From the IMG/VR virus record IMGVR_UViG_3300008952_000137, positions 1 through 37,605 of that record: 37,605 nt of DNA. One strand, written 5' to 3'. Both the position numbers and the translations under genes were made by a program. Shown here piece by piece: positions 12,329 to 31,059 of the stretch. The number at the start of each line of letters is the position of its first letter. The first letter of the stretch is position 1. The stretch is from a virus. Under the pieces are notes generated by a model. The model saw nothing but the letters and a program-made list of their open reading frames with translations, did not search any database and had not been told where the DNA came from.

Positions 12329-12397
12329 AATGATTGCAACTCCGAGTGGATATAGTACATTTATGGAATGTTTAACAATAATAATAAGGAGAATAAA

Positions 12398-13450
12398 ATG
12401 CAAAAACTAAATAGAACATTCGGTGTTGAAATTGAATTTGGTTTAAAATCAAATTTAACTAGAGAAGATTTCAAAGCTGAATTTGAAATGAGAACTGGCG
12501 AAACTATGAAAATTATCGGTGCTTATAATACTGGTAATTCTCCAACTGATTGGATTTTGGGAGTTGACTCAACTGTTGATGTTCCAAATTATAGAGGTTA
12601 TGAATTAAAATCTCCTCCAATCAAACTTTCAGAAATTGATAGACTTAAAAAAGTTTATGAATATTTGAATGAAGTAGGAAAAGTAAACAAGTCTTGCGGT
12701 CAACATGTTCACATTGATGCAAACGATTTAACATTTAAGCAACAGAAAAAAGTTTTAGTTGCTTATTTAGTTAATGAAGATGTAATTGATATGATGCATC
12801 CAATGAGTAGAAGATTTGGAATGGACCAATACAATAGAAGAATATCAAATGGTTCTGCTTATTGTGGTAGTGGTGCTGGTCGTCAAAATATAACTGCTTC
12901 TGTAATTGGTTCTCAACAAAATAATTTAATGAACAGATTGTTGAGTCATTACAAATCAGTTGTAATTAACCAATGTATCAAGATTATCAAAAAAGCTAGA
13001 AGTGTTAGAAGATTAAAAGGAAATGGATTTTCTGACAAATATTCTAATGTTAAATTTGATGAAAGATATGGAACTATCGAATTTAGACAACACGCAGGTA
13101 CTCTTGAATATTCTAAAATTGCTAACTGGATTATATTCTTGAACAATTTTGTTATTGGATATGCTTATGGTCCAGCAGTTGCAATGAAAGATGAAACTAG
13201 AAGTGATGGTCGTGATAGATTATTTTTCAGAAAAGTTTCTCAACTTGAAAAATCTACTAAAGCAAGAGTTAAGAAATATGGTGGATTTGATATTCCTAAT
13301 TCAGAAAGAAGTTATGAATATCTTAAAGGTAGAATATCTCACTTTGTTAGAAGCTTAAATGGAATGTCTGATTACGAAAAAGCAATGAGAATCATTCTTG
13401 AAAATAGAGGAGTTACATTTAGATTGGGAGGTACTAATGAAAACAGATAG
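12398..13450 (+). CDS. Amidoligase (glutamine-synthetase-fold COOH-NH2 ligase)
   Basis: This 350-aa enzyme belongs to the Amidoligase_2-type family, predicted to join a carboxylate and an amine using ATP. Hallmarks are FGVEIEF at 8-14, GYELKSPP at 67-74, CGQHVHID at 100-107 and the C-terminal GTIEFRQHAGT near 225-235; the Glu, His and Arg residues there would hold metal and nucleotide. The start at 12398 is chosen over an ATG 30 bases earlier because AAGGAG lies 6 bases before it. It overlaps the gamma-glutamylcyclotransferase gene by 14 bases. Comparative genomics of this family links such pairs to synthesis and trimming of gamma-glutamyl or peptide amides; the substrate here is unknown. Confidence 0.82.
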   Translation: MQKLNRTFGVEIEFGLKSNLTREDFKAEFEMRTGETMKIIGAYNTGNSPTDWILGVDSTVDVPNYRGYELKSPPIKLSEIDRLKKVYEYLNEVGKVNKSCGQHVHIDANDLTFKQQKKVLVAYLVNEDVIDMMHPMSRRFGMDQYNRRISNGSAYCGSGAGRQNITASVIGSQQNNLMNRLLSHYKSVVINQCIKIIKKARSVRRLKGNGFSDKYSNVKFDERYGTIEFRQHAGTLEYSKIANWIIFLNNFVIGYAYGPAVAMKDETRSDGRDRLFFRKVSQLEKSTKARVKKYGGFDIPNSERSYEYLKGRISHFVRSLNGMSDYEKAMRIILENRGVTFRLGGTNENR

Positions 13451-13994
13451 TAAATTGATTAACTACTTGAAAAAACATCCTAAAATATATTTTGCGTATG
13501 GTTCAAATTTAAACCTTACGCAAATGAAAGTAAGGTGTCCTGATTCTAAATTAATTAAGATTTGTACTTTAGAAGATTACAAATTAGTATTTAGAGGTGT
13601 CGCTGATGTTGAATACAGTAAAGGCGATAAAGTTTGGGGTGCATTATTTCGAGTTGGTTATAAAGATATTGTGAACCTAGATGCTTATGAGGGTTATCCT
13701 ACTCTTTATACCAAAGAATATATGCCAACTAAATATGGCGATGGGTTCTTTTACATTATGAATAATCAACATGATGTGAAACCACCATCGGAATATTATT
13801 ACGACACTATTAAAAAAGGATACAAACAATGTAAGTTGCCATCTATCAAACCATTAACATCTTCATTGAGAGCAAGTAAAAAAGAGAGAAATACAGATGA
13901 AGTTGATTGTGGTGCGAAGTGGGGAATAAATGTTCGTAAGAAATATTTTATTGATGAATATGGACAATACATAATGGATGATACCCATGAATAA
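13437..13994 (+). CDS. Gamma-glutamylcyclotransferase-like protein (AIG2/GGCT fold)
   Basis: A 185-aa protein with the GGCT signature FAYGSNL at 19-25, VWGALFRV at 66-73 and LDAYEGYP at 81-88, where Glu85 matches the catalytic glutamate. Members release 5-oxoproline from gamma-glutamyl amines or peptides. The start at 13437 has GGGAGG five bases upstream and overlaps the amidoligase stop; the longer frame from 13398 is rejected. The C-terminal 60 residues are Lys-rich and less conserved. The tight pairing implies that the two enzymes make and break, or rearrange, the same amide bond. Confidence 0.85.
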   Translation: MKTDSKLINYLKKHPKIYFAYGSNLNLTQMKVRCPDSKLIKICTLEDYKLVFRGVADVEYSKGDKVWGALFRVGYKDIVNLDAYEGYPTLYTKEYMPTKYGDGFFYIMNNQHDVKPPSEYYYDTIKKGYKQCKLPSIKPLTSSLRASKKERNTDEVDCGAKWGINVRKKYFIDEYGQYIMDDTHE

Positions 13995-21173: not shown

Positions 21174-21343
21174 TTCATACTAAAAACCCTTATAATAGGG
21201 GTATATATCAAGAAAAAGACCAAAAAAGCTAGGAAAATAAGGTACTTTAGACCATTATTGCCTTGGGTTTGCCCGACCTCCAACTCTTTCTAGTCAGGCA
21301 TAATATATTTGCGTTTCGTTTCGTTTTCTTATAGATACGAAAT
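21174..21343 (+). promoter_or_regulatory. Intergenic region before the accessory island
   Basis: A 170-base stretch without a gene. It holds an inverted copy of the 10-base ATAAGGGTTT motif at 21184-21193, a weak stem ACCCTT/GGGGT near 21186-21202, a CGTTT tandem repeat at 21312-21326 and a possible promoter TTGCGT-15-TATAGA at 21309-21335 just upstream of the ATG at 21344. The spacing is short, so the promoter is tentative. It is the likely start point for transcription of the accessory and packaging genes. Confidence 0.4.
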
Positions 21344-22018
21344 ATGTCAGATAAATTAAAGATAGAATTATCAAGTCCATTTGGACCAACAATACTTAAA
21401 GCAAAATTACCTGAAGAACTTATAAAAGATTTTAATAAAGATTGTGATGACATTGTTGCCAAGAAAAAAGAACAAGTTGATTGGTCAGACCAGTTAGCTG
21501 GTAGAGTAAAAGAAGAATGGCATATTTCAAAAGACTCATCATCTAAATATTATTCTTGGGTAGGTGCAGTTACTTCTAGATATTTATTTCCTAGTGATAA
21601 AATGTATCAAGAAAATAAAGATAAGTTATCAGTTGGAATTGCAAGTGGTTGGTATGTAAGACAGTTTGCTGGAGAGTTTAACCCATACCATTTCCATACT
21701 GGGTGCCAAGTATCATGTATTGGGTATTTAAAACTTCCTGAAGATATAAATGAATATTGGAAAGAAGAAGATAAAGACCACAACCCTTTCGGAGGTTATC
21801 TAGATTTTAGATATGGAACTATTGGATTAAATTGTCCAAACAATATTAAAGTGAAACCTCAAGTTGGGGATTTTTATATGTTTCCCTCTTATTTAGATCA
21901 TTGTGTTTATCCATTTAAAAGTAAATATATTAATTTTGAACCTCAAGGAGAAAGACGAAGTTTTAGTTTAAACATTATCTTTGGAAATAAAAACAATGAG
22001 AACGATAATAAATCTTAA
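21344..22018 (+). CDS. 2-oxoglutarate/Fe(II)-dependent oxygenase
   Basis: A 224-aa enzyme of the putative 2OG-Fe(II) oxygenase family common in marine phages (2OG-FeII_Oxy_5 type). The core motif is NPYHFHTGCQVSCIGYLKLP at 113-132 with the metal-binding His116/His118, then KPQVGDFYMFPSYLDHCVYP at 171-190 with the distal His186, and GERRSFSLNI with an Arg for 2-oxoglutarate. The double-stranded beta-helix order is complete. Substrates of phage members are unknown; hydroxylation of a protein, nucleobase or small metabolite is possible. It leads the accessory island and overlaps the ParB-domain gene by 23 bases. Confidence 0.82.
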   Translation: MSDKLKIELSSPFGPTILKAKLPEELIKDFNKDCDDIVAKKKEQVDWSDQLAGRVKEEWHISKDSSSKYYSWVGAVTSRYLFPSDKMYQENKDKLSVGIASGWYVRQFAGEFNPYHFHTGCQVSCIGYLKLPEDINEYWKEEDKDHNPFGGYLDFRYGTIGLNCPNNIKVKPQVGDFYMFPSYLDHCVYPFKSKYINFEPQGERRSFSLNIIFGNKNNENDNKS

Positions 22019-22610
22019 ATTAGAAGAAATAAAACCTTATAAGAAAAATCCTCGTAAGAATGATATAAGTGTTCCTAAAGTAAAAAAGTCTATTGAAACC
22101 TTTGGGTTCAATCAACCTATATTGTTAGACAAAGACAAAATAATTATAACTGGACATTCAAGATTTAAAGCTGCCAAAGAGTTAGGATTAGTAGAAGTAC
22201 CATGTATTATTGTTGAGGACTTATCTGAAAATGCAATTAAAGCATATAGAATAGCAGATAACAAAGTAGGTCAAGACTCAACATGGGATGTAGCTCTTTT
22301 AAAAGAAGAATTAAAAAAATTACGAATAGAACACTTCCCTATGACAGATACTGGTTTTACAGATGTTGAATTAGAGAATTTAGAAATGGAATTAGAAAAA
22401 ATAAGTGTGGCAACCAAAAGTGAAAACCTTTCTACTATTGAACCACCTAATTTTTCTGATGCAATGGTAAACATTAACTTTACTTTAAAACCTGAAGAAC
22501 GATTGGTAGTTATGAACTATCTTGACTATCATAAACAAATAAACAAACTTAATACAACGGCAGAGGCATTAGTACACCTTGCTAGAGAGGATGAGAAAGA
22601 CAATGGATAG
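21996..22610 (+). CDS. ParB/Srx-domain protein
   Basis: A 204-aa protein with a ParB/sulfiredoxin-like N-terminal domain: LKLEEIKPYKKNPRKN at 7-22 and KIIITGHSRFKAAKELGLVE at 48-67, followed by AYRIADNKVGQDSTWD. The G-H-S-R motif binds nucleotide in this superfamily, where members act as CTPases, nucleases or ATP-dependent enzymes. This subfamily is often fused to an adenine methyltransferase, absent here; instead a C-terminal helical region ends LNTTAEALVHLAREDEKDNG. The start at 21996 lies inside the oxygenase gene, five codons after an earlier in-frame ATG. It overlaps the symporter gene by 8 bases. Confidence 0.8.
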   Translation: MRTIINLKLEEIKPYKKNPRKNDISVPKVKKSIETFGFNQPILLDKDKIIITGHSRFKAAKELGLVEVPCIIVEDLSENAIKAYRIADNKVGQDSTWDVALLKEELKKLRIEHFPMTDTGFTDVELENLEMELEKISVATKSENLSTIEPPNFSDAMVNINFTLKPEERLVVMNYLDYHKQINKLNTTAEALVHLAREDEKDNG

Positions 22611-24015
22611 TGCATTTACACAAAGAGAGGGAATAGTAATCTTATTAGGTTATGGAATATTTATGTTTATGTTAGCAACATATTATTTAAAACCCTCAAA
22701 GACAAAAGAGAATTATTTATTAGCAGATAGAAAGATAGGTTGGTTACATAGTGGTTTTAGTATTTCAGCAACTTGGATATGGGCACCAGCATTATTTGTT
22801 GCAACTTTAAAAGCATATACACAGGGCATAGCTGGATTGTTTTGGTTTACAGTACCGAACATTGCCTGTCTTTTAATTTTTACTTGGTTTGCAATTAAGA
22901 TTAGAGAGTTATGTCCAAAAGGATTTACTCTTTCATCTTTTATGAAAGATAAATATAGTTCAAGAGTTCAAAATATGTATTTATTAGAATTAACTGGTTT
23001 GGCAGTTTGTCAATTTGCAGTACAACTATTAGCTGGAGGTGCAGTAATAGCATATTTAACTGGATTAGATTTTTTTGTAATTACATTAATACTTTCAGTA
23101 ACAGCATTATCATATTCTTTTATTAGTGGAGTTAGGGCGAGTATTTTAACTGACTATTGGCAGATGTGGTTTATACTTGTTGTTGTTGTATTAGTAGTGC
23201 CATGGATTGTAAGTGCTGGAGGTGGATGGGCAACTGTTCTTGATGGAATAGGTGGTATATCCGGCAAGTATAGTAATCCATTTAATGCTGAAGTAGCATA
23301 TTCATTTGGAATAGTAGTTACGATTGGATTGTTAGCTGGTCCATTTGGAGATCAATCATTTTGGCAAAGAACATTTGCTACAAAGAAAAAAGAAATTAAA
23401 AAAGCGTTCATTTGTTCAGCAATAGTATTTGGAGTTGTTCCAATCTTTACTGGACTAATAGGATTTGTTGCCGCTGGTTTAGGTATAGAGGGAAAACCTC
23501 AACTTATCAATATAATTACAGCACAGATGTTATTACCAACATGGGTATTACTTCCATTTGCATTTATGCTTATAAGTGGATTAGTTTCTACATTAGATAG
23601 TGCATTGTGTTCAGTATCTTCTTTAATAGGACATGATATTGCAGAAAGACAAAAAGTAAATTCAATGAAATATGCAAAAATGGGAATGGTTGTTTTGGCA
23701 ATAGCTGGTTTACTTATTGCTAATATACCTGATATGAAAATTTTATATCTTTTTTTATTTTATGGAACATTACGAGCATCAACTCTTATTCCAACTGTAT
23801 TAACAATTATCAAAGGAAAGTTATCTGAACAAGGTATGTTTTATGGTATCTGTCTAGCATTGTTTGTAGGAGCTCCATTAATGGCTTATGGTAATTTTGG
23901 AGGAGGATTACATTACAAAGTAGCTGGTGCAGTATTTACAGTTTTATCATCAGGAATTGTAGCTTGGTTATGGACAATATATGGGAAAGATATTAAAAAA
24001 AGAAGAAGTAGATAA
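22603..24015 (+). CDS. Sodium:solute symporter (SSS family)
   Basis: A 470-aa inner-membrane transporter with about 13 hydrophobic helices, full length for the family, with LeuT-like fold. N-terminal ENYLLADRKIG (36-46) is the family's periplasmic loop motif. SATWIWAPALF (55-65) resembles the Dur3-type urea/polyamine branch. GPFGDQSFWQRTFAT (246-260) matches the conserved G-DQ-QR signature. SGLVSTLDSALCSVSSLIGH (325-344, then DI) aligns with the vSGLT region forming the Na2 site, keeping the Ser-Thr pair at 329-330. The transported solute is unknown. It overlaps ParB-like genes on both sides of the operon (8 bases upstream, 35 bases with the PAPS-reductase gene). Nothing suggests decay. Confidence 0.88.
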   Translation: MDSAFTQREGIVILLGYGIFMFMLATYYLKPSKTKENYLLADRKIGWLHSGFSISATWIWAPALFVATLKAYTQGIAGLFWFTVPNIACLLIFTWFAIKIRELCPKGFTLSSFMKDKYSSRVQNMYLLELTGLAVCQFAVQLLAGGAVIAYLTGLDFFVITLILSVTALSYSFISGVRASILTDYWQMWFILVVVVLVVPWIVSAGGGWATVLDGIGGISGKYSNPFNAEVAYSFGIVVTIGLLAGPFGDQSFWQRTFATKKKEIKKAFICSAIVFGVVPIFTGLIGFVAAGLGIEGKPQLINIITAQMLLPTWVLLPFAFMLISGLVSTLDSALCSVSSLIGHDIAERQKVNSMKYAKMGMVVLAIAGLLIANIPDMKILYLFLFYGTLRASTLIPTVLTIIKGKLSEQGMFYGICLALFVGAPLMAYGNFGGGLHYKVAGAVFTVLSSGIVAWLWTIYGKDIKKRRSR

Positions 24016-25288
24016 ATCAGTATTAGATTTAGCTTATGAAAGAATAAATAATGCTTACGACCAATTTGATACTATATCTGTTTCCTTTAGTGGAGGTAAA
24101 GACTCTACTGCATGTTTAAATTTAACATTAGAAGTAGCAAAAAAAAGAAACAAACTACCTCTTGATGTTGTTTTTGTAGATGAAGAAGCAATAAGTTATG
24201 AAACAGAACATTATTGTAGACGAGTAAGTAAAAATCCTGATATAAATTTTAGATGGTTATGTATTCCAGTTGAACATAGAAACGCTTGTAGTAGAAAACA
24301 ACCATATTGGCATCCATGGGCCCCTGAAGAAAAAGATAAATGGGTTAGACCACTTCCTCCTGAAGGAATTACAAAAATAGATTATTATAATAGCGATATA
24401 CCAAGTGCTAGACTTACTATTCCATTTTTATTTCCAATTTTATATCCAGTAGAAAAATATGGAAGAACTGGAGTAATAATGGGAATAAGAGCAGATGAAA
24501 GTTTAACTAGGTATCGTGCAGTATCTCAAAGAGTACATGAAAATTATATTATACAACCAAAAGAAACAATTCCGATGGAAGAAGTGATAGAAAGAAAAAT
24601 AGATGTTACTAGATTTAATTTAAGGTCTAATAAACAAAAGAACTTGTCAAATAATGTTGGAAACTATTTTAAAGTCTATCCAGTTTATGATTGGACAACG
24701 CAAGATATATGGACAGCTCCAAATATGTTTGGATGGGATTATAATACTTCATACGACATTATGGAAAAGTGTGGCATAACTCATTCTGCTCAAAGATGTG
24801 CTCCTCCTTTTGGGGAAGAACCTCTAGAGGGATTATGGATGTATCATGAATGTTTTCCTGACATTTGGGATAAAATGAGTACGAGGGTTCAAGGTGCTAA
24901 TACTGCTGCAAGACATAGTTTAACTGTTTTATATTCAAATAGAAAAAATCCTGAAAAACCTGATGGAATGGAATGGATAGATTATTTAAGTTATTGGATT
25001 AGAAAGTTTCCACCAAAAGAGGCAGAACATATACAACATAGAATTAATGAATTAATATCTCAACATCAGAAAAAAACTCCTGACCCTATTTTAAAAAAGA
25101 CACCACATCCAACGACAGGCATAAGTTGGGAATACTTATTAAAAATAGCAGTTAGGGGAGATTTAAAAAATAGAAAACAAGCACCATATTTTTCTAGTGC
25201 TTATGTTGATGAGTTTGAATCAAGAAAACAAATGTACGCAAAGGAGTTAGCAGATGTCCAAAGAGCAAATGCCAATAAGCAAAGTTGA
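23981..25288 (+). CDS. PAPS-reductase-family PP-loop ATPase, IbrA/YbdN-like
   Basis: A 435-aa protein with the PP-loop SFSGGKDSTACL at 35-46, the ATP-pyrophosphatase site of the PAPS reductase/DndC group, followed by DVVFVDEEAISYETEHYCRR, GRTGVIMGIRADESLTRYRA and a C-terminal half rich in aromatic residues with cysteines (CGITHSAQRCAPPFGEE). This long form with a DUF3440-like extension is the type of E. coli YbdN/IbrA, which is paired with the ParB-like YbdM/IbrB. Exactly that pair is present here. Activities of this group range from sulfur activation to tRNA or DNA modification; the reaction here is not known. It overlaps both flanking genes by 35 bases. Confidence 0.82.
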   Translation: MGKILKKEEVDKSVLDLAYERINNAYDQFDTISVSFSGGKDSTACLNLTLEVAKKRNKLPLDVVFVDEEAISYETEHYCRRVSKNPDINFRWLCIPVEHRNACSRKQPYWHPWAPEEKDKWVRPLPPEGITKIDYYNSDIPSARLTIPFLFPILYPVEKYGRTGVIMGIRADESLTRYRAVSQRVHENYIIQPKETIPMEEVIERKIDVTRFNLRSNKQKNLSNNVGNYFKVYPVYDWTTQDIWTAPNMFGWDYNTSYDIMEKCGITHSAQRCAPPFGEEPLEGLWMYHECFPDIWDKMSTRVQGANTAARHSLTVLYSNRKNPEKPDGMEWIDYLSYWIRKFPPKEAEHIQHRINELISQHQKKTPDPILKKTPHPTTGISWEYLLKIAVRGDLKNRKQAPYFSSAYVDEFESRKQMYAKELADVQRANANKQS

Positions 25289-25763
25289 GTGGGTTAAGGT
25301 CGAAGAATTAAAGGCAAATGACTATAATCCAAATCATGTTGCACCAGTAGAGTTAAAATTATTAAAAGTTTCATTAATAGAAGATGGATGGACTCAACCA
25401 GTTGTTATTAGAGAAAATAATGAAATTGTAGATGGGTTTCATAGATGGACTTTATGTCGTAAAGATAAAGATGTGTTTAAAATGACTGATGGATATGTTC
25501 CAGTTGTTAGATTAAAAGAAAAAGATATTTCCAATCAAATGATGAGTACAATTAGACATAACAGGGCAAGAGGTGTTCATGGAGTTATGTTAATGGCAGA
25601 TATTGTTCAAAAGTTAAAAGATGAAAACAAAGTACCTGATGACATTATCCAAGAGAAGTTAGGCATGGAAGAAGAAGAAGTGGAAAGATTACATGACCAA
25701 TCAGGAATGACTAAAAGGGGTTCTAAACAGGAATTTAATACAGGATGGCGTCCAAAAAGATAA
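25254..25763 (+). CDS. ParB/Srx-domain protein, IbrB/YbdM-like
   Basis: A 169-aa ParB/sulfiredoxin-like protein with VEWVKVEELKANDYNPNHVA at 11-30, WTQPVVIRENNEIVDGFHRW at 46-65 (the D-G-F-H-R motif replaces the ParB GxRR) and a C-terminal helical domain (QMMSTIRHNRARGVHG, KLGMEEEEVERL). This is the shape of IbrB/YbdM, the usual partner of IbrA/YbdN, which lies directly upstream with a 35-base overlap. In E. coli the pair influences expression of immunoglobulin-binding proteins; the biochemical mechanism is unknown. It may act as a nucleotide-dependent partner of the PP-loop enzyme. Confidence 0.82.
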   Translation: MSKEQMPISKVEWVKVEELKANDYNPNHVAPVELKLLKVSLIEDGWTQPVVIRENNEIVDGFHRWTLCRKDKDVFKMTDGYVPVVRLKEKDISNQMMSTIRHNRARGVHGVMLMADIVQKLKDENKVPDDIIQEKLGMEEEEVERLHDQSGMTKRGSKQEFNTGWRPKR

Positions 25764-26188
25764 AAACAAGTCCCAATGGGGACCAAACATTTTATATATC
25801 TGCTCTTAAAAGAGATAATGCAGAGTTAACCAGAATGAACCAAGAATTAATGAAAAAATATGCAGTTAAAACATCTGATAAAGTTGTTAATGATGTTATT
25901 GACAGAATATTTGTAAGACACATGCAAGGCATGGAAAAATTTAAAGTTACTATGTCGCAAAACTCAAAAACAATTCCTCAATGGATTGAAGATGTTATTG
26001 AAGAACAAATAGACTCAATAAGTTATTTATCTACATTAAAAGATAGAGTAGTTGAAAGAGAAGAAAAGTTATTAAAAGAAATTGATATGAAAAATGATGA
26101 ACTAACTATATTACAATTACAATTAGATAAAGCAGTAGAAAACAAATGTAAATGTCCTGATACAAATGGCAAAAAAGAAAAAAAGTAA
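25745..26188 (+). CDS. Coiled-coil protein of unknown function
   Basis: A 147-aa protein that is mostly helix: an N-terminal ALKRDNAELTRMNQELMKKY, a central RHMQGMEKFKVTMSQNSKTI, and a C-terminal coil (VEREEKLLKEIDMKND, then LQLQLDKAVE) ending in a KCKCPD cysteine pair. It has no enzyme motif. It overlaps the ParB-like gene by 19 bases and the following short gene by 23. It may be a scaffold or packaging accessory, as it starts the block leading to the terminase. Confidence 0.5.
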   Translation: MASKKIKTSPNGDQTFYISALKRDNAELTRMNQELMKKYAVKTSDKVVNDVIDRIFVRHMQGMEKFKVTMSQNSKTIPQWIEDVIEEQIDSISYLSTLKDRVVEREEKLLKEIDMKNDELTILQLQLDKAVENKCKCPDTNGKKEKK

Positions 26189-26312
26189 TTTATATGCAAA
26201 AATTGAACATATTAGTAATGCAAGATTTAAAAAAACTACTATTGGTGGCAATCCTAAACGCTATAAAAAATCTACACTTAACAAACACAAACGCAGACAG
26301 TTAGGTGTATGA
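26166..26312 (+). CDS. Very basic 48-aa protein
   Basis: A short gene starting at 26166 inside the end of the coiled-coil gene and stopping just before the next. Of 48 residues, about 19 are Lys, Arg or His: it begins MAKKKKSNLYAKIEHISNAR and ends KKSTLNKHKRRQLGV. The composition and length resemble small ribosomal-protein-like nucleic-acid binders. Its location upstream of the small terminase subunit could mean a role in DNA binding during packaging, which is inference. Confidence 0.5.
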   Translation: MAKKKKSNLYAKIEHISNARFKKTTIGGNPKRYKKSTLNKHKRRQLGV

Positions 26313-26315
26313 TAT

Positions 26316-26555
26316 ATGAAAGTATTTTTTCTGTATTTATTAATAGTAACTTCTGATAGTTATTATTGGATTAAAATTCCCTTTGGTTATACTTTAAGAC
26401 CTATAACTTGCGAAGAAGCATTTTATAAAAGTGTTACTCATGAAATACCATTTACATTTTATAAAGGAAAAGTTGTTGGGATGCATTATTGTAAAGATAT
26501 ATTGGGAAACTATTATTGGGGATATGAAGAACAATTAGATTATGACTTACGATAG
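26316..26555 (+). CDS. Small exported protein with two cysteines
   Basis: A 79-aa protein with a signal-peptide-like start (MKVFFLYLLIVTS) and an aromatic-rich mature part holding two cysteines (PITCEEAF near 32 and HYCKD near 58), plausibly a disulphide. It resembles the tiny exported proteins at 967 and 9949. Unknown role; it could be secreted to the periplasm of the infected cell. It overlaps the following gene by 14 bases. Confidence 0.5.
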   Translation: MKVFFLYLLIVTSDSYYWIKIPFGYTLRPITCEEAFYKSVTHEIPFTFYKGKVVGMHYCKDILGNYYWGYEEQLDYDLR

Positions 26556-26748
26556 AAGATTTATTACTCCAAGAGAGCAAAATACAATAAGCTCTCTCAT
26601 GTTAAAAAAGGGCGTGAACGACAAAGCCATTTCTAGACGATTTGGACAGTTTAATAAAGTATCATTATTTAGAAGTTTTATGAAAGGTCAAAAAATTATA
26701 GAAGAAAATTACATAAAGGAATTAATTACATGGCTAAAATCTCTTTAA
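26542..26748 (+). CDS. Small HTH-like protein
   Basis: A 68-aa basic protein with a helix-turn-helix-like section: QNTISSLMLKKGVNDKAISR followed by RFGQFNKVSLFRSFMKG. Such short HTH proteins often precede terminase small subunits. It overlaps the small-terminase gene by 19 bases, and may take part in DNA recognition or act as a small regulator. The assignment is structural guesswork. Confidence 0.45.
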   Translation: MTYDRRFITPREQNTISSLMLKKGVNDKAISRRFGQFNKVSLFRSFMKGQKIIEENYIKELITWLKSL

Positions 26749-27263
26749 CAGCAATATCTCAATTATTAAAACTAACTGAAAGAAGAATACAGCAGTTAGC
26801 AAAAGATGGTATTATTCCAAAAGCTGATAGAGGGGAATATGATATGATACCAGTTGTTCATGCTTATATTGATTATTTAAAAGCTAAAATAGGTGGAGAA
26901 TTTAATGCTGAAGATTTGGCTATTAATAGAAATAGATTATTAAAAGCACAAGCAGATTTAGCAGAAATTGAAAAGCAAAAACAAGAGGGGGAATTAATTA
27001 CTAAAGAGGAGGTCAAAAAAAACTGGCTCAATTTATTAAGTGTGTTAAAAACAAAGTTATTATCTATGCCTAATAAACTTGCACCAGTTGTTATCACTTA
27101 TAAAAATGTTAATGAAATTAAATTAATAATAAAGGATAAAGTACATGACGCACTCTACGAGATTGCAGGAACAGACCTTACCAAAAACGACAAAAGGAAT
27201 GTCAGAAGTAATAAGGTCAAGCCTAAATCTATTAAGACCGCCTCCCAGTCTAACAATAAGTGA
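26730..27263 (+). CDS. Terminase small subunit, Nu1-like
   Basis: A 177-aa packaging protein similar to lambda gpNu1 (181 aa). The N-terminal winged-helix DNA-recognition unit is visible as SLTAISQLLKLTERRIQQLA followed by KDGIIPKADRGEYDMIPVVH, then a long helix (NRNRLLKAQADLAEIEKQKQ) for oligomerisation and binding the large subunit. It recognises the phage cos-type start site and activates the GpA-like subunit directly downstream, with which it overlaps. No cos sequence can be identified by eye. Confidence 0.8.
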   Translation: MAKISLTAISQLLKLTERRIQQLAKDGIIPKADRGEYDMIPVVHAYIDYLKAKIGGEFNAEDLAINRNRLLKAQADLAEIEKQKQEGELITKEEVKKNWLNLLSVLKTKLLSMPNKLAPVVITYKNVNEIKLIIKDKVHDALYEIAGTDLTKNDKRNVRSNKVKPKSIKTASQSNNK

Positions 27264-28995
27264 TTGGGCAAATAAGTTTCGTATCTTATCGCCAGAAGGA
27301 AGTAGTGAAGCTGGTAGATTTGAAACTTCAAGAGCAATATTTCAAAAAGAAATAATGGATGCATGTGCAGACCCATCTGTAAATGAAGTTGTGGTTATGT
27401 CATGTTCCCAAGTAGGAAAAACAGAAACTTTATTAAATGCAATAGGTTATTATATTGCTTATGAACCAGCGCCTATCCTTATGGTACAGCCAACTTTAGA
27501 AATGGCTAGAAGTTGGAGCCAAGATAGATTGGCTACTATGGTTAGAGATACTCCAATTATAACAGGCAAAGTTGCAGATGTTAAAAGTAGAGATAGTGGT
27601 AACACAACACTTCATAAAACATTTGAGGGTGGACATATAACAGCATGTGGAGCAAACTCTCCAGCTTCTTTAGCAAGTAGACCTATTAAAATTGTATTAT
27701 GTGATGAAGTAGATCGTTATCCAGCTACAGCTGGTGCAGAGGGGGACCCAGTTTTATTAGCAAAAAGAAGAAGTGCAACTTTTTGGGATAGTAAATTAAT
27801 TATGACATCTACTCCAACTGTTTCAGGTGCTAGTAGAATTGAAAGTGCTTATGAAAATAGCGACCAAAGAAAATTTTATGTTCCTTGTATACATTGTAAG
27901 CATAGTCAACTTTTAGAATGGAAAAATGTTAAATGGGAAAAAGACAGACCAGATACAGCAGTTATTGAATGTCCTGAATGTCATAAAACAATGGATAACG
28001 CAGATAGAATAAGAACTATATCAAAAGGACATTGGAAAGCTAAAAATAAGTTTACTGGTATAGCTGGGTTTCATTTGAGTGGTTTATATAGCCCATGGGT
28101 TTCATTAGAGGAGGCAGTATCAGAATTTTTAATGGCAAAAAAAATGCCTGAAACATTGAGAGTATTTGTAAACACATATTTGGGCGAAAGTTGGGAAGAC
28201 GCTGGAGAACGAATAGATGATATGGGATTATTTAAAAGGAGAGAAGCATATACTGTTCCTGAAGAAGTTTTAGTAATTACAGCTGGAGTTGACATCCAAG
28301 ATGATAGAATTGAGATGGAAGTAGTAGGTTGGGGTATGGATGAAGAAAGTTGGAGTCTAGATTATATAAGAATATATGGAGATCCATCAGCACCTAGTAT
28401 TTGGAATGAATTAGATATGCACCTATCTAAAGTTTATGATTGTATTGATAAAACTAGAATGAAAATAATTTCAGTATGTATAGATAGTGGACACCATACA
28501 AATCAAGTTTATAAATTTTGTAAACCAAGACTTGCAAGACGAATATTTGCAATTAAAGGACAAGCTGGAGAAGGTAAAACTATTATTGGTCGTGCATCTA
28601 GAAATAACATTATGAGATGTCCTTTATTTCCAGTTGGTGTAGACACAGCAAAAGAATTGATATATTCAAGACTTAATATAAAAGACGCTGGTGCTGGTTA
28701 TTGTCATTTTCCCATGAAATATGATGAAGAATACTTTAGGCAATTAACAGCAGAAAAAATTGTTACGAAATATAGACGAGGATTTAAAAGACGAGAATGG
28801 GTATTAATGAGAAGCAGAAACGAAGCGTTAGATTGCAGAGTATATTCTTTAGCAGCCCTTTCAGTTCTTAATGCAGATTTAAAGATGTTATATAAAAACA
28901 AAAAAGGACAAACAGATAAACAATCAAAAGTCAACCGCTCTAGGTTGAGAAACTATCAAAAAAAGAGTAATTTCGTTTCATCATGGGAAAATTAA
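27145..28995 (+). CDS. Terminase large subunit, GpA-like
   Basis: A 616-aa DNA-packaging motor and nuclease of the lambda GpA family. The family opening LRPPPSLTISDWANKFRILS is followed by VVVMSCSQVGKTETLLNAIG (Walker A-like, Lys92), LMVQPTLEMARSWSQDRLA, IVLCDEVDRYP (Walker B), IMTSTPT and a C-terminal nuclease region (DIQDDRIEMEVVGWG, then IDSGHH). Two starts are possible: 27145, with AAGGA eight bases upstream, and 27199, whose N-terminus better fits the family but whose ribosome site touches the ATG. GpA-type terminases cut at cos sites, which suggests unit-length virion DNA with cohesive ends. Confidence 0.93.
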   Translation: MTHSTRLQEQTLPKTTKGMSEVIRSSLNLLRPPPSLTISDWANKFRILSPEGSSEAGRFETSRAIFQKEIMDACADPSVNEVVVMSCSQVGKTETLLNAIGYYIAYEPAPILMVQPTLEMARSWSQDRLATMVRDTPIITGKVADVKSRDSGNTTLHKTFEGGHITACGANSPASLASRPIKIVLCDEVDRYPATAGAEGDPVLLAKRRSATFWDSKLIMTSTPTVSGASRIESAYENSDQRKFYVPCIHCKHSQLLEWKNVKWEKDRPDTAVIECPECHKTMDNADRIRTISKGHWKAKNKFTGIAGFHLSGLYSPWVSLEEAVSEFLMAKKMPETLRVFVNTYLGESWEDAGERIDDMGLFKRREAYTVPEEVLVITAGVDIQDDRIEMEVVGWGMDEESWSLDYIRIYGDPSAPSIWNELDMHLSKVYDCIDKTRMKIISVCIDSGHHTNQVYKFCKPRLARRIFAIKGQAGEGKTIIGRASRNNIMRCPLFPVGVDTAKELIYSRLNIKDAGAGYCHFPMKYDEEYFRQLTAEKIVTKYRRGFKRREWVLMRSRNEALDCRVYSLAALSVLNADLKMLYKNKKGQTDKQSKVNRSRLRNYQKKSNFVSSWEN

Positions 28996-29000
28996 ATTAA

Positions 29001-29591
29001 ATGGCAAACTTATTCACAGATATACCTGAAAAAGAACCAATACAGATTTTTAAAGGCGAAACTGTTGTATGGAAAAGAACAGATATAGGTGTAGATTATG
29101 ACCCATCTAGTCATTCAATGGTATGGGAGGCATCATTAGAAACAAATGGTTCAACAAGATTTAGTGCAACTGTTACAGAATCAGGAACAGAATATACATT
29201 TACTTTAGATAATTCAAATACAGCAAACTATACAGCTGGAGATTATAAATGGTTTTTAAAAGTTCTTCAAACAAGTGATAGCGAAACTTTAATTATAGAC
29301 TCTGGAAAAATAACAGTTAAAGATAATTATTTTGCAACTACTGGAGATACTCGTTCTCATGCAAAAATAATGGTAGACAAGTTAGAGAGTTTAATTGAGG
29401 GAAAAGCTGATAGTGATGTTTCTAGTTATGCTATAGCTGGAAGAAGTCTTAATAAATTAACTCCTGACGAATTAATCACTTGGTTTAATTATTATAAGGC
29501 ACTCTATCAACAAGAAATAAAAGAATTTAGAATAGGCAATAATGAGGGTAGTGGAGCAGTAATAAAGGTAAGATTTGATGACATTTCGTGA
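29001..29591 (+). CDS. Head-associated protein at the gpW position
   Basis: A 196-aa protein between large terminase and portal, where lambda encodes gpW. It is not a gpW (68 aa): its N-terminal half is a beta-sandwich-like region (FKGETVVWKRTDIGVDYDPS, then YTFTLDNSNTANYTAGDYKW), and the C-terminal part has DTRSHAKIMVDKLESLIEGK and YAIAGRSLNKLTPDELITWF. The SHA-VDxLE-IEG and IAGRSL motifs recur in phage proteins at this locus; the function is likely head decoration or completion. The stop overlaps the portal start by 14 bases. Confidence 0.55.
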   Translation: MANLFTDIPEKEPIQIFKGETVVWKRTDIGVDYDPSSHSMVWEASLETNGSTRFSATVTESGTEYTFTLDNSNTANYTAGDYKWFLKVLQTSDSETLIIDSGKITVKDNYFATTGDTRSHAKIMVDKLESLIEGKADSDVSSYAIAGRSLNKLTPDELITWFNYYKALYQQEIKEFRIGNNEGSGAVIKVRFDDIS

Positions 29592-31059
29592 GAGAATAAT
29601 TAATTGGTTTAGAAGAAGAAGAAAAAGATATAACTTCTATACTGGAGCAAGTACCAGTAGAATATTAAGTAATTTTGTTACTTCAGGAAAAACAGCAGAT
29701 AGTGAAATTAGACAAACAATAAAAGTTTTAAGACATAGAGCAAGAGATTTAGCAAAAAATAATGCTTATGCTCGTAGATTTATTAATGCTTATGTAGATA
29801 ATGTTGTAGGACCAAGAGGAATGCATCTACAAGTTAGAAGTAGGGACCCGAATGGTGCATTAGATACATTTGCTAACTCATTAATTGAAATGAGATGGAA
29901 AGATTTTACTAAAAAAGGTAATTGCACAGCAGATGGTAAATTATCGTTTCTAGAAGTACAGAGATTGTTTGCTGAAATTTATGCAAGAGATGGAGAAGTA
30001 TTAGTAAGAACAATTTACAATTTTGACAATCAATCTAAATACGCATTAGAGTTTATAGAGTCTGATAGGTTAGACCATGAATTAAATGACAATTTAAGTA
30101 ATGGAAATATAATTAGAATGGGTGTTGAAATAAACAAATTTGGCAGACCAATCAATTATTATATTTTAAAAGTACATCCTGATGATAATTTTCATAGTCC
30201 AGCTACATACGAAAAAGATAAATACAATATTGTTCCAGCAGAAGAAATGATACATTTCTATCATCAAGAAAGACCAAATCAAACAAGAGGTGTTCCTTTA
30301 TTGTCTTCATGTTTAAAACAATTAAAGATGTTAGATGGCTATATGGAAGCTGAACTTGTTGCGGCAAGAGTGGGTGCATCTAAAATGGGTTTCTTTAAAT
30401 CAGGAGATGGAACTGCTTATACTGGGGAAGATAAAACAGATACTAACAATCCTATAATGAGTGCAGAACCAGGCACATTTGAACAACTACCAACTGGAGT
30501 AGACTTTCAATCATTTGACCCTCAACATCCTACAACAGCATTTAAAGATTTTACAAAATCTGTAATCAGAGCAATAGCAAGTAGTTTAAATATTAGTTAC
30601 AACACACTAGCAAACGATTTAGAAAGTGTGAACTATTCTAGTTTAAGACAAGGTGCTTTAGAAGAAAGAAGTCATTATCAATGTGAACAACATAGAATGA
30701 TAGAGGGTTTTATGAATATAATTTATGCTAAATGGTTGAACATGGCATTTCTAGCTGGTAACTTGTCCAATTTGCCTGATGGTAAATATAATAAATTTAA
30801 TTCTCCAATATGGCGACCTAGAGGGTGGCAATGGATTGACCCTAAAAAAGAAGTTGATGCTTTACAAATAGGTATGAGTAATGGGTTTTTATCTATGCAA
30901 GATGTTCAAGCTGGTTATGGTAGAGATGTTGAAGATGTTTTTGCTAGTATACAAACTGAAAAAGAACTTGCACAGAAATATGGAATTCAAATAGCATTTG
31001 AACCATTTGGAGATAAAGGTATTCAACAAGTTAATGAAAAGGTTGAAGATGAAGAATAA
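29578..31059 (+). CDS. Portal protein, lambda gpB family
   Basis: A 493-aa portal that forms the ring through which DNA enters and leaves the capsid. Family traits are LRHRARDLAKNNAYARRFIN, AYVDNVVGPRGMHLQVRSRD, FAEIYARDGEVLVRT, FIESDRLDHE, EEMIHFYHQERPNQTRGVPL and SYNTLANDLESVNYSSLRQG. The ATG at 29578 lies inside the stop of the preceding gene and has AAAGG upstream; an adjacent TTG is ignored. It overlaps the protease-capsid gene by 11 bases. The C-terminus is acidic. Confidence 0.92.
   Translation: MTFRERIINWFRRRRKRYNFYTGASTSRILSNFVTSGKTADSEIRQTIKVLRHRARDLAKNNAYARRFINAYVDNVVGPRGMHLQVRSRDPNGALDTFANSLIEMRWKDFTKKGNCTADGKLSFLEVQRLFAEIYARDGEVLVRTIYNFDNQSKYALEFIESDRLDHELNDNLSNGNIIRMGVEINKFGRPINYYILKVHPDDNFHSPATYEKDKYNIVPAEEMIHFYHQERPNQTRGVPLLSSCLKQLKMLDGYMEAELVAARVGASKMGFFKSGDGTAYTGEDKTDTNNPIMSAEPGTFEQLPTGVDFQSFDPQHPTTAFKDFTKSVIRAIASSLNISYNTLANDLESVNYSSLRQGALEERSHYQCEQHRMIEGFMNIIYAKWLNMAFLAGNLSNLPDGKYNKFNSPIWRPRGWQWIDPKKEVDALQIGMSNGFLSMQDVQAGYGRDVEDVFASIQTEKELAQKYGIQIAFEPFGDKGIQQVNEKVEDEE

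Follow-up and report, generated by a model that had tools for sequence, protein, structure and literature searches.

We found that the sodium:solute symporter (SSS) gene of a viral DNA, IMG/VR record IMGVR_UViG_3300008952_000137 (the whole stretch of 37,605 nucleotides, hereafter the window), almost certainly belongs to a conserved functional module together with ParB and PP-loop ATPase genes. The order of this cassette is ParB1 - X - PP-loop ATPase - ParB2 - terminase genes (Table 1), where slot X holds the symporter (SSF) in the window and unrelated proteins in other phages. The overall best explanation, to which we give about an even chance, is that SSF is the substrate-supply part of the cassette, its solute being activated by the ATPase and joined to an acceptor. 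What looked like a single odd transporter is a marker of a widespread viral module common to free viruses and gut prophages.

Table 1. Genes of the cassette in the window and adjoining genes.
Feature	Position	Strand	Remarks
2OG-Fe(II) oxygenase (PF13759)	21344..22018	+	overlaps ParB1 start; close relatives only, including bicupin-type L158/L162
ParB1, ParB/Srx-fold (phrog_620)	21996..22610	+	overlaps SSF start by 8 bp
SSF (slot X of cassette)	22603..24015	+	SSS-fold transporter, 470 aa; Pfam, PHROG, AF2, structure comparison, motif counts
PP-loop ATPase, PAPS_reduct + DUF3440, IbrA-like	23981..25288	+	overlaps SSF end by 35 bp; SGGKDS present, ECGxH absent
ParB2, second ParB-like protein (phrog_2159, IbrB-like)	25254..25763	+	
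147-aa protein, no assigned function	25745..26188	+	overlaps ParB2 end; close relatives only
Terminase small subunit	26730..27263	+	marks conserved cassette position
Terminase large subunit	27145..28995	+	

The earlier note, made from the sequence alone, had described a full-length SSS transporter with about 13 hydrophobic helices, and our results agree with it on both points. The SSF ORF (other possible in-frame starts are 22579, TTG, and 22591, ATG) matches Pfam PF00474 at 70.2 bits (gathering cut-off 22.8, E 2.1e-19) over positions 1-403 of the 406-position profile, and phrog_20720, a 460-position profile labelled 'unknown function', at 419 bits (E 4e-125). The AF2 model, built from 19 sequences of the family (mean pLDDT 91.7, pTM 0.90), aligns with SSS structures across 440-457 residues, with Z scores of 45 for CHT1, 38.7 for maize DUR3, 38.2 for SiaT and 36 for SGLT1, and hydropathy and the DSSP helices of the model concur on about 13 transmembrane segments. 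SSF thus shares with the SSS/SLC5 proteins (DUR3, CHT1, SiaT, vSGLT and PutP) the LeuT-type fold, the number of helices, the S/T pair of the Na2 site and the DQ/QR region. It differs from them in being only about 17-21% identical to the solved transporters, in forming its own clade against the ordinary SSS proteins sampled, in being encoded in a phage cassette and in scoring under the curated cut-offs of TIGR00813 sss (127 bits, cut-off 184) and of the PutP and PanF equivalogs (46.6 and 63.2 bits, cut-offs 515.5 and 328, respectively). The best solved relatives by sequence profile are DUR3 (E about 1e-31), CHT1 and vSGLT. A leaning towards the Dur3 urea/polyamine branch had been proposed earlier; DUR3 is closest by profile, but an assignment to its branch is not established at about 20% identity and with CHT1 the best structural match.

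The transport residues were also correctly placed in the earlier note: the DQ-QR signature is D250-Q251-S-F-W-Q255-R256 and the S/T pair is S329-T330, and both are near-invariant in an alignment of 122 cassette-borne relatives (D250, Q251, Q255, R256 and S329 in 122/122, T or S330 in 121/122). In a profile alignment the S329/T330 stretch falls on the MSS motif of a CHT1-type transporter, and these residues are predicted to be the Na2 side chains, the S/T pair of core TM8. Na2 is the conserved site of the SSS family, whose substitution is highly deleterious (review PMC7918813). SSF is a genuine member of the SSS superfamily, under selection to be kept, and we are highly confident that it is a transporter, with Na+-coupled uptake as the predicted activity.

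PHROG matches to terminase, portal, major head, tape measure and tail-fibre genes identify the contig as a phage; neither an Rfam nor a tRNA search gave any match in the window. By their ORF coordinates, the genes from 21344 to 26188 overlap successively, and the placement of SSF in a phage operon, overlapping a ParB-domain gene and a PAPS-reductase-family gene, is as first reported. Neighbour clustering showed SSF almost everywhere with ParB1, ParB2 and PAPSR_L (the PAPS-reductase-family PP-loop ATPase with DUF3440), often with PAPSR_S (a second short PP-loop protein), and then the terminase genes. Of the loci from the SSF-seeded scans, 53 of the 60 viral ones and 72 of the 80 in genomes have a PP-loop ATPase within 3.5 kb of SSF; such an ATPase also adjoins the bicupin described below in 73/80 loci and TctC in 9/9. 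No PP-loop ATPase was called near SSF in the other 7 viral and 8 genome loci, some of which have short flanks; these exceptions count against the supply explanation. At three of them (L054, L138 and L140) SSF ends in a break inside the gene, and an inserted element was shown in two of the three.

A scan of IMG/VR with the SSF protein detected 60 loci, 40-100% identical to it, and a scan of 84,980 species genomes detected 80, about 62 of them prophage. The genome loci are mainly prophages of Lachnospiraceae, Oscillospiraceae and their relatives, and of Treponema, with a few cellular copies, and most prophage copies found are from animal-gut bacteria. Among 50,697 phage records there is one close relative, MT836198 (46%), an unannotated human faecal phage scaffold that also has the cassette. 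The description of such transporters as rare phage genes is therefore accurate for isolated phages, whereas in viral metagenomes and prophages it does not hold. In the tree, the SSF subfamily is separated from the sampled ordinary SSS proteins, and the window's SSF belongs to a viral clade of four members (SH-aLRT 99) nested in a 21-row clade that also holds cellular copies; the outgroup contained a cassette SSF (L152, the same gene as L069) and some very long branches, and from this tree we used solely the separation of the subfamily and the window's local clade. Even the closest cellular copies share only about 53% identity with it, which gives no indication that the gene was taken from a host recently. 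No close viral homologue came from a BFVD fold search. As to novelty, which had been proposed for the gene, our search of open-licence PMC papers turned up no account of the ParB1 - X - PP-loop ATPase - ParB2 cassette, but the family already exists as phrog_20720 and viral symporters have been listed before (PMC13288924). A distant SSS-like match (24.7% identity) occurs in the T4-size Aeromonas phages UP87, B614 and the avDM series (OP380594-OP380603), where the gene is annotated as a hypothetical protein.

IMG/VR scans seeded with PAPSR_L exposed cassettes without SSF. Between ParB1 and PAPSR_L, the alternatives are a bicupin (230-280 aa), a TctC periplasmic binding protein (PF03401), and a small cupin followed by an aldehyde dehydrogenase (ALDH). 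In 245 loci with ParB1 and PAPSR_L, slot X holds the bicupin in 116, SSF in 111, TctC in 9, cupin plus ALDH in 4, a small cupin in 2, SSF plus a small cupin in 1 and none of these in 2, the bicupin and SSF counts being inflated by the seeds. The three ATPase-seeded scans alone (88 loci) gave bicupin 71, SSF 4, TctC 4, cupin with or without ALDH 7 and none 2, and after removal of near-copies 130 loci remained (SSF 60, bicupin 60, TctC 3, others 7). A single kind of X, with cupin plus ALDH counted as one kind, is present in 242/245 loci and in 86/88 loci of the ATPase-seeded scans, and SSF and bicupin were never found in the same locus among the 245. Where ParB1 is missing, X is also missing in 41 of 63 PAPSR_L loci; loci of this type include fragments and distant ParB2-ATPase pairs (L307-L338), many of them in IbrB-IbrA order.

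The exchange can be followed at the DNA level. The window and two bicupin-type contigs (L159 and L162) are collinear on either side of SSF at 65-71% identity, with the bicupin in the SSF position: the alignment covers the 2OG-oxygenase and ParB1, then resumes at the first bases of PAPSR_L and continues through ParB2 and the terminases (for L159, 66% over 21309-22267, 71% over 23990-25748 and 69% over 26752-30140). The ATPase of the window is 71% identical to that of the bicupin-type L159 and 70.5% to that of the SSF-bearing L005, and the PAPSR_L tree has at least five changes of the SSF label on well-supported branches. X has been swapped repeatedly within the cassette. Because the symporter is repeatedly replaced by bicupin, TctC or cupin plus ALDH, there is strong comparative evidence that these unrelated X proteins serve one pathway, their equivalence of role being inferred from exchange of position. 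The identity of the pathway would follow from finding the ligand common to the X proteins.

The bicupins have no membrane segment by inspection, and the cassette cupins match AraC_binding. The nearest bicupin folds are ureidoglycine aminohydrolase/DUF861 proteins (Z 19-21), and naming the reaction from this fold was rejected as too general at 11-13% identity; an NCBIfam search with the bicupin returned no enzyme. A ureido substrate for the bicupin would fit well with a DUR3-like transporter. The bicupin may be an enzyme or a sensor and not a supplier. The ALDH of slot X resembles aminobutyraldehyde/betaine-aldehyde dehydrogenases, far under their cut-offs. Among the isolated phages no bicupin was found and TctC gave a single weak match (29%). 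Two further arrangements were seen: a GC-rich cassette in which a DegT/DnrJ aminotransferase gene (PF01041) separates ParB1 from the ATPase, the latter being followed by a cupin-like ORF (by inspection) (L267:1417-3018), and a cassette with two ParB1 copies headed by a 256-aa hydrophobic protein without Pfam or PHROG match (L289:2-769), which may represent one more kind of transporter filling slot X.

The ATPase of the window matches PAPS_reduct at 44.3 bits (cut-off 22.5) and DUF3440 at 43.3 bits (cut-off 25). The adjoining ParB2 scores 25.7 bits against ParB_N, just under the cut-off of 26.3, and 211 bits against phrog_2159. The PP-loop is present in 297/298 PAPSR_L sequences, whereas the ECGxH motif of CysH is present in 0/298. 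This rules out PAPSR_L as a CysH PAPS reductase and makes assimilatory sulfate reduction by it unlikely. The cassette ATPase shares its Pfam domain and annotation with the phage 'cysH' PAPS reductases that are counted as auxiliary metabolic genes (AMGs) but differs from them in lacking the catalytic motif; many phage genes that carry a PAPS reductase (cysH) annotation, and that virome studies count among sulfur-metabolism AMGs, are without this motif and probably have another function. The nearest solved relatives of PAPSR_L by sequence, all weak, are FAD synthase, CysD, tRNA thiolase and Cap9 (E 0.006).

A second kind of PP-loop ATPase accompanies the same X proteins. An asparagine-synthetase-like PP-loop protein (c39), with no related solved structure by sequence, pairs with the bicupin outside the ParB cassette in 20 of 80 bicupin loci, and members of its family also neighbour SSF (in Patescibacteria and others) and, at one locus, TctC (L344). 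The bicupin-c39 pairs L235-L260 are on viral contigs, several of them longer than 60 kb. Another set of cellular SSF genes adjoins a full Asn_synthase protein (PF00733, 241 bits), whose inferred N-termini are without the glutaminase cysteine (Cys2) in 5/5, which is what one would expect of an enzyme whose amine is something other than glutamine-derived ammonia. At L062, L063, L064, L084 and L135 the protein starts MGxLFG-like and not MCGIFG, and a family with a Toprim match lies nearby. This two-way exchange, in which SSF, bicupin and TctC are each found with two kinds of PP-loop ATPase, is our chief ground for placing X and the ATPase in the same pathway.

The cassette points to an undescribed pathway in which a small molecule is captured and joined to something, and we lean slightly towards X supplying or handling that molecule. 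The solute that SSF would most likely import is a small organic one, probably taken up with Na+, and it would pass to the PP-loop ATPase, in the simplest case as a carboxylate. The ATPase would adenylate the solute and, with the two ParB-fold proteins, may join it to an acceptor, for which phage DNA before packaging and protein are the candidates, while other phages would meet the same need via the bicupin, the TctC-type binding protein or the cupin with ALDH. PP-loop enzymes use ATP to activate substrates, and carboxylates are bound by TctC proteins and made by aldehyde dehydrogenases, so a carboxylate is the simplest common denominator; that a carboxylate is what the module handles and its ATPase activates is nonetheless a tentative proposal. 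ATP-dependent activation of a carboxylate is the reaction of QueC-type enzymes, whose relative Cap9 joins the carboxylate to a protein N-terminus (PMC13279940). DNA-modification systems, Dpd and Dnd among them, employ ParB-fold proteins (PMC12839542), and this, together with the position of the cassette just upstream of the terminase genes, makes phage DNA a plausible acceptor, though we would still call it unlikely to be the actual one. The complete scheme, an undescribed viral modification system in which a carboxylate is captured, adenylated and conjugated to phage DNA or protein before packaging, directed by ParB-fold NTPases, is doubtful as a whole. If true, it would give a new hypermodified base or protein tag, maybe evading host defence, and phages would swap the capture module and keep the chemistry.

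Similar gene sets are known from the QueC-family conjugation systems (type IV CBASS Cap9 and qatABCD), which likewise combine a PP-loop ATPase with accessory genes and for which carboxylate activation followed by conjugation is the proposed shared chemistry (PMC13279940). The cassette ATPase differs in belonging to another PP-loop family, the sequence link being the one weak match to Cap9. We know of no transporter or cupin in these systems. IbrA/IbrB are another parallel, in which a PAPS_reduct and DUF3440 protein likewise stands beside a ParB-like protein in phages; the cassette adds ParB1 and the X gene, both of which are missing from the distant ParB2-ATPase pairs L307-L338.

This likeness feeds the main rival explanation, that the X proteins are receptors reporting a host metabolite to ParB/IbrA-like transcriptional co-activators, with SSF as a transceptor. 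IbrA/IbrB are catalogued as prophage gene expression co-activators (PMC5874904), so the ParB-fold and PP-loop pair alone is tied in the literature to gene activation and not to modification, which counts against the modification scheme. The AraC_binding matches of the cassette cupins and the occurrence of SSS domains in sensor kinases such as CbrA (PMC7918813) also agree with sensing. SSF, however, has no signalling domain, it retains in 121-122 of 122 relatives the Na2 residues that CbrA lacks (PMC7918813), and the ALDH is a catalytic X; we consider the sensor explanation fairly improbable.

The proposal of the earlier note, a stand-alone AMG that keeps the infected cell importing a scarce nutrient, draws on the intact transporter with its conserved Na2 site and on DUR3 as closest solved relative by sequence. 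It does not account for the close association of the SSF gene with PP-loop ATPase genes, for its replacement in the same slot by a soluble bicupin, TctC or cupin plus ALDH, or for its presence in phages of gut Bacillota and Treponema as well as other viral contigs, and we now judge it distinctly improbable. Nor does the picture of a recently acquired host metabolic gene acting alone fit a deep viral clade and a tightly linked cassette. Superinfection exclusion, in which SSF would alter the host envelope and block rival phages, is suggested by its being a membrane protein with many prophage copies, but it is very unlikely given that bicupins without a membrane segment fill the same slot and that the transport residues are so strongly conserved. 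Osmoprotection, by import of a compatible solute or by balancing host Na+ in saline water, is how a 2026 estuarine virome paper reads the viral solute/sodium symporters that it lists (PMC13288924), and the likeness of the ALDH to betaine-aldehyde and aminobutyraldehyde dehydrogenases, far under their cut-offs, agrees with this; since most prophage copies come from animal-gut bacteria and salinity does not explain ParB, the PP-loop partners or the bicupin, we regard it as extremely unlikely.

SSF lies on a metagenomic contig, but a chimeric assembly or a passing host gene carried as neutral cargo has a negligible chance of being the explanation, as one independent contig spans both SSF junctions (3300007513_000773, 100% identical across window positions 21274-30012, 8739 bp), a second is collinear at 90% (3300030372_000708) and the lineage is deeply viral and under selection. 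The GC content of SSF (0.319) is close to that of the window (0.324). Against relatives at 71-91% identity, SSF has a dN/dS of 0.09-0.20 and the terminase one of 0.10-0.24; purifying selection acts on SSF as it does on TerL.

Several other features were observed. At 12368-13994 of the window an Amidoligase_2 gene (PF12224) overlaps a gamma-glutamyl cyclotransferase-like (GGACT) gene, a second peptide/amide-bond module in this phage. ParB1 of Bacillota prophages (for example L029:8193-8843 and L073:5569-6201) has a conserved C-terminal CPxCGExIWL zinc-ribbon-like motif that is absent in the window's ParB1. A T4-like SSF clade (L036, L038, L060 and L061) has A/I instead of the Na2 S/T pair, a loss that counts against the supply explanation, and is possibly Na+-independent; its neighbours are sulfotransferase-, 2OG oxygenase- and methyltransferase-like genes (by inspection), a radical SAM gene (Pfam) and DUF6267. 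PAPSR and c39 searches found no hidden cassette in contigs of the L036 type or in other exceptions, the viral records being fragments. In Roseburia sp. 1XD42-69 (L409, G038:C110:31000-49800) and in a viral contig (L410, G040:C1:1500-21000), SSF is interrupted at its SGLLST(V/I)DS (Na2) codons, the same break as in L138, by an element of about 13.5-14.4 kb with a tyrosine-recombinase-like integrase gene (by inspection) beside the C-terminal half and 11-bp direct repeats at both ends (TCGACGATTGA and TCCACGGTGGA). The phage SSF gene thus seems to serve as the attachment site for another mobile element.
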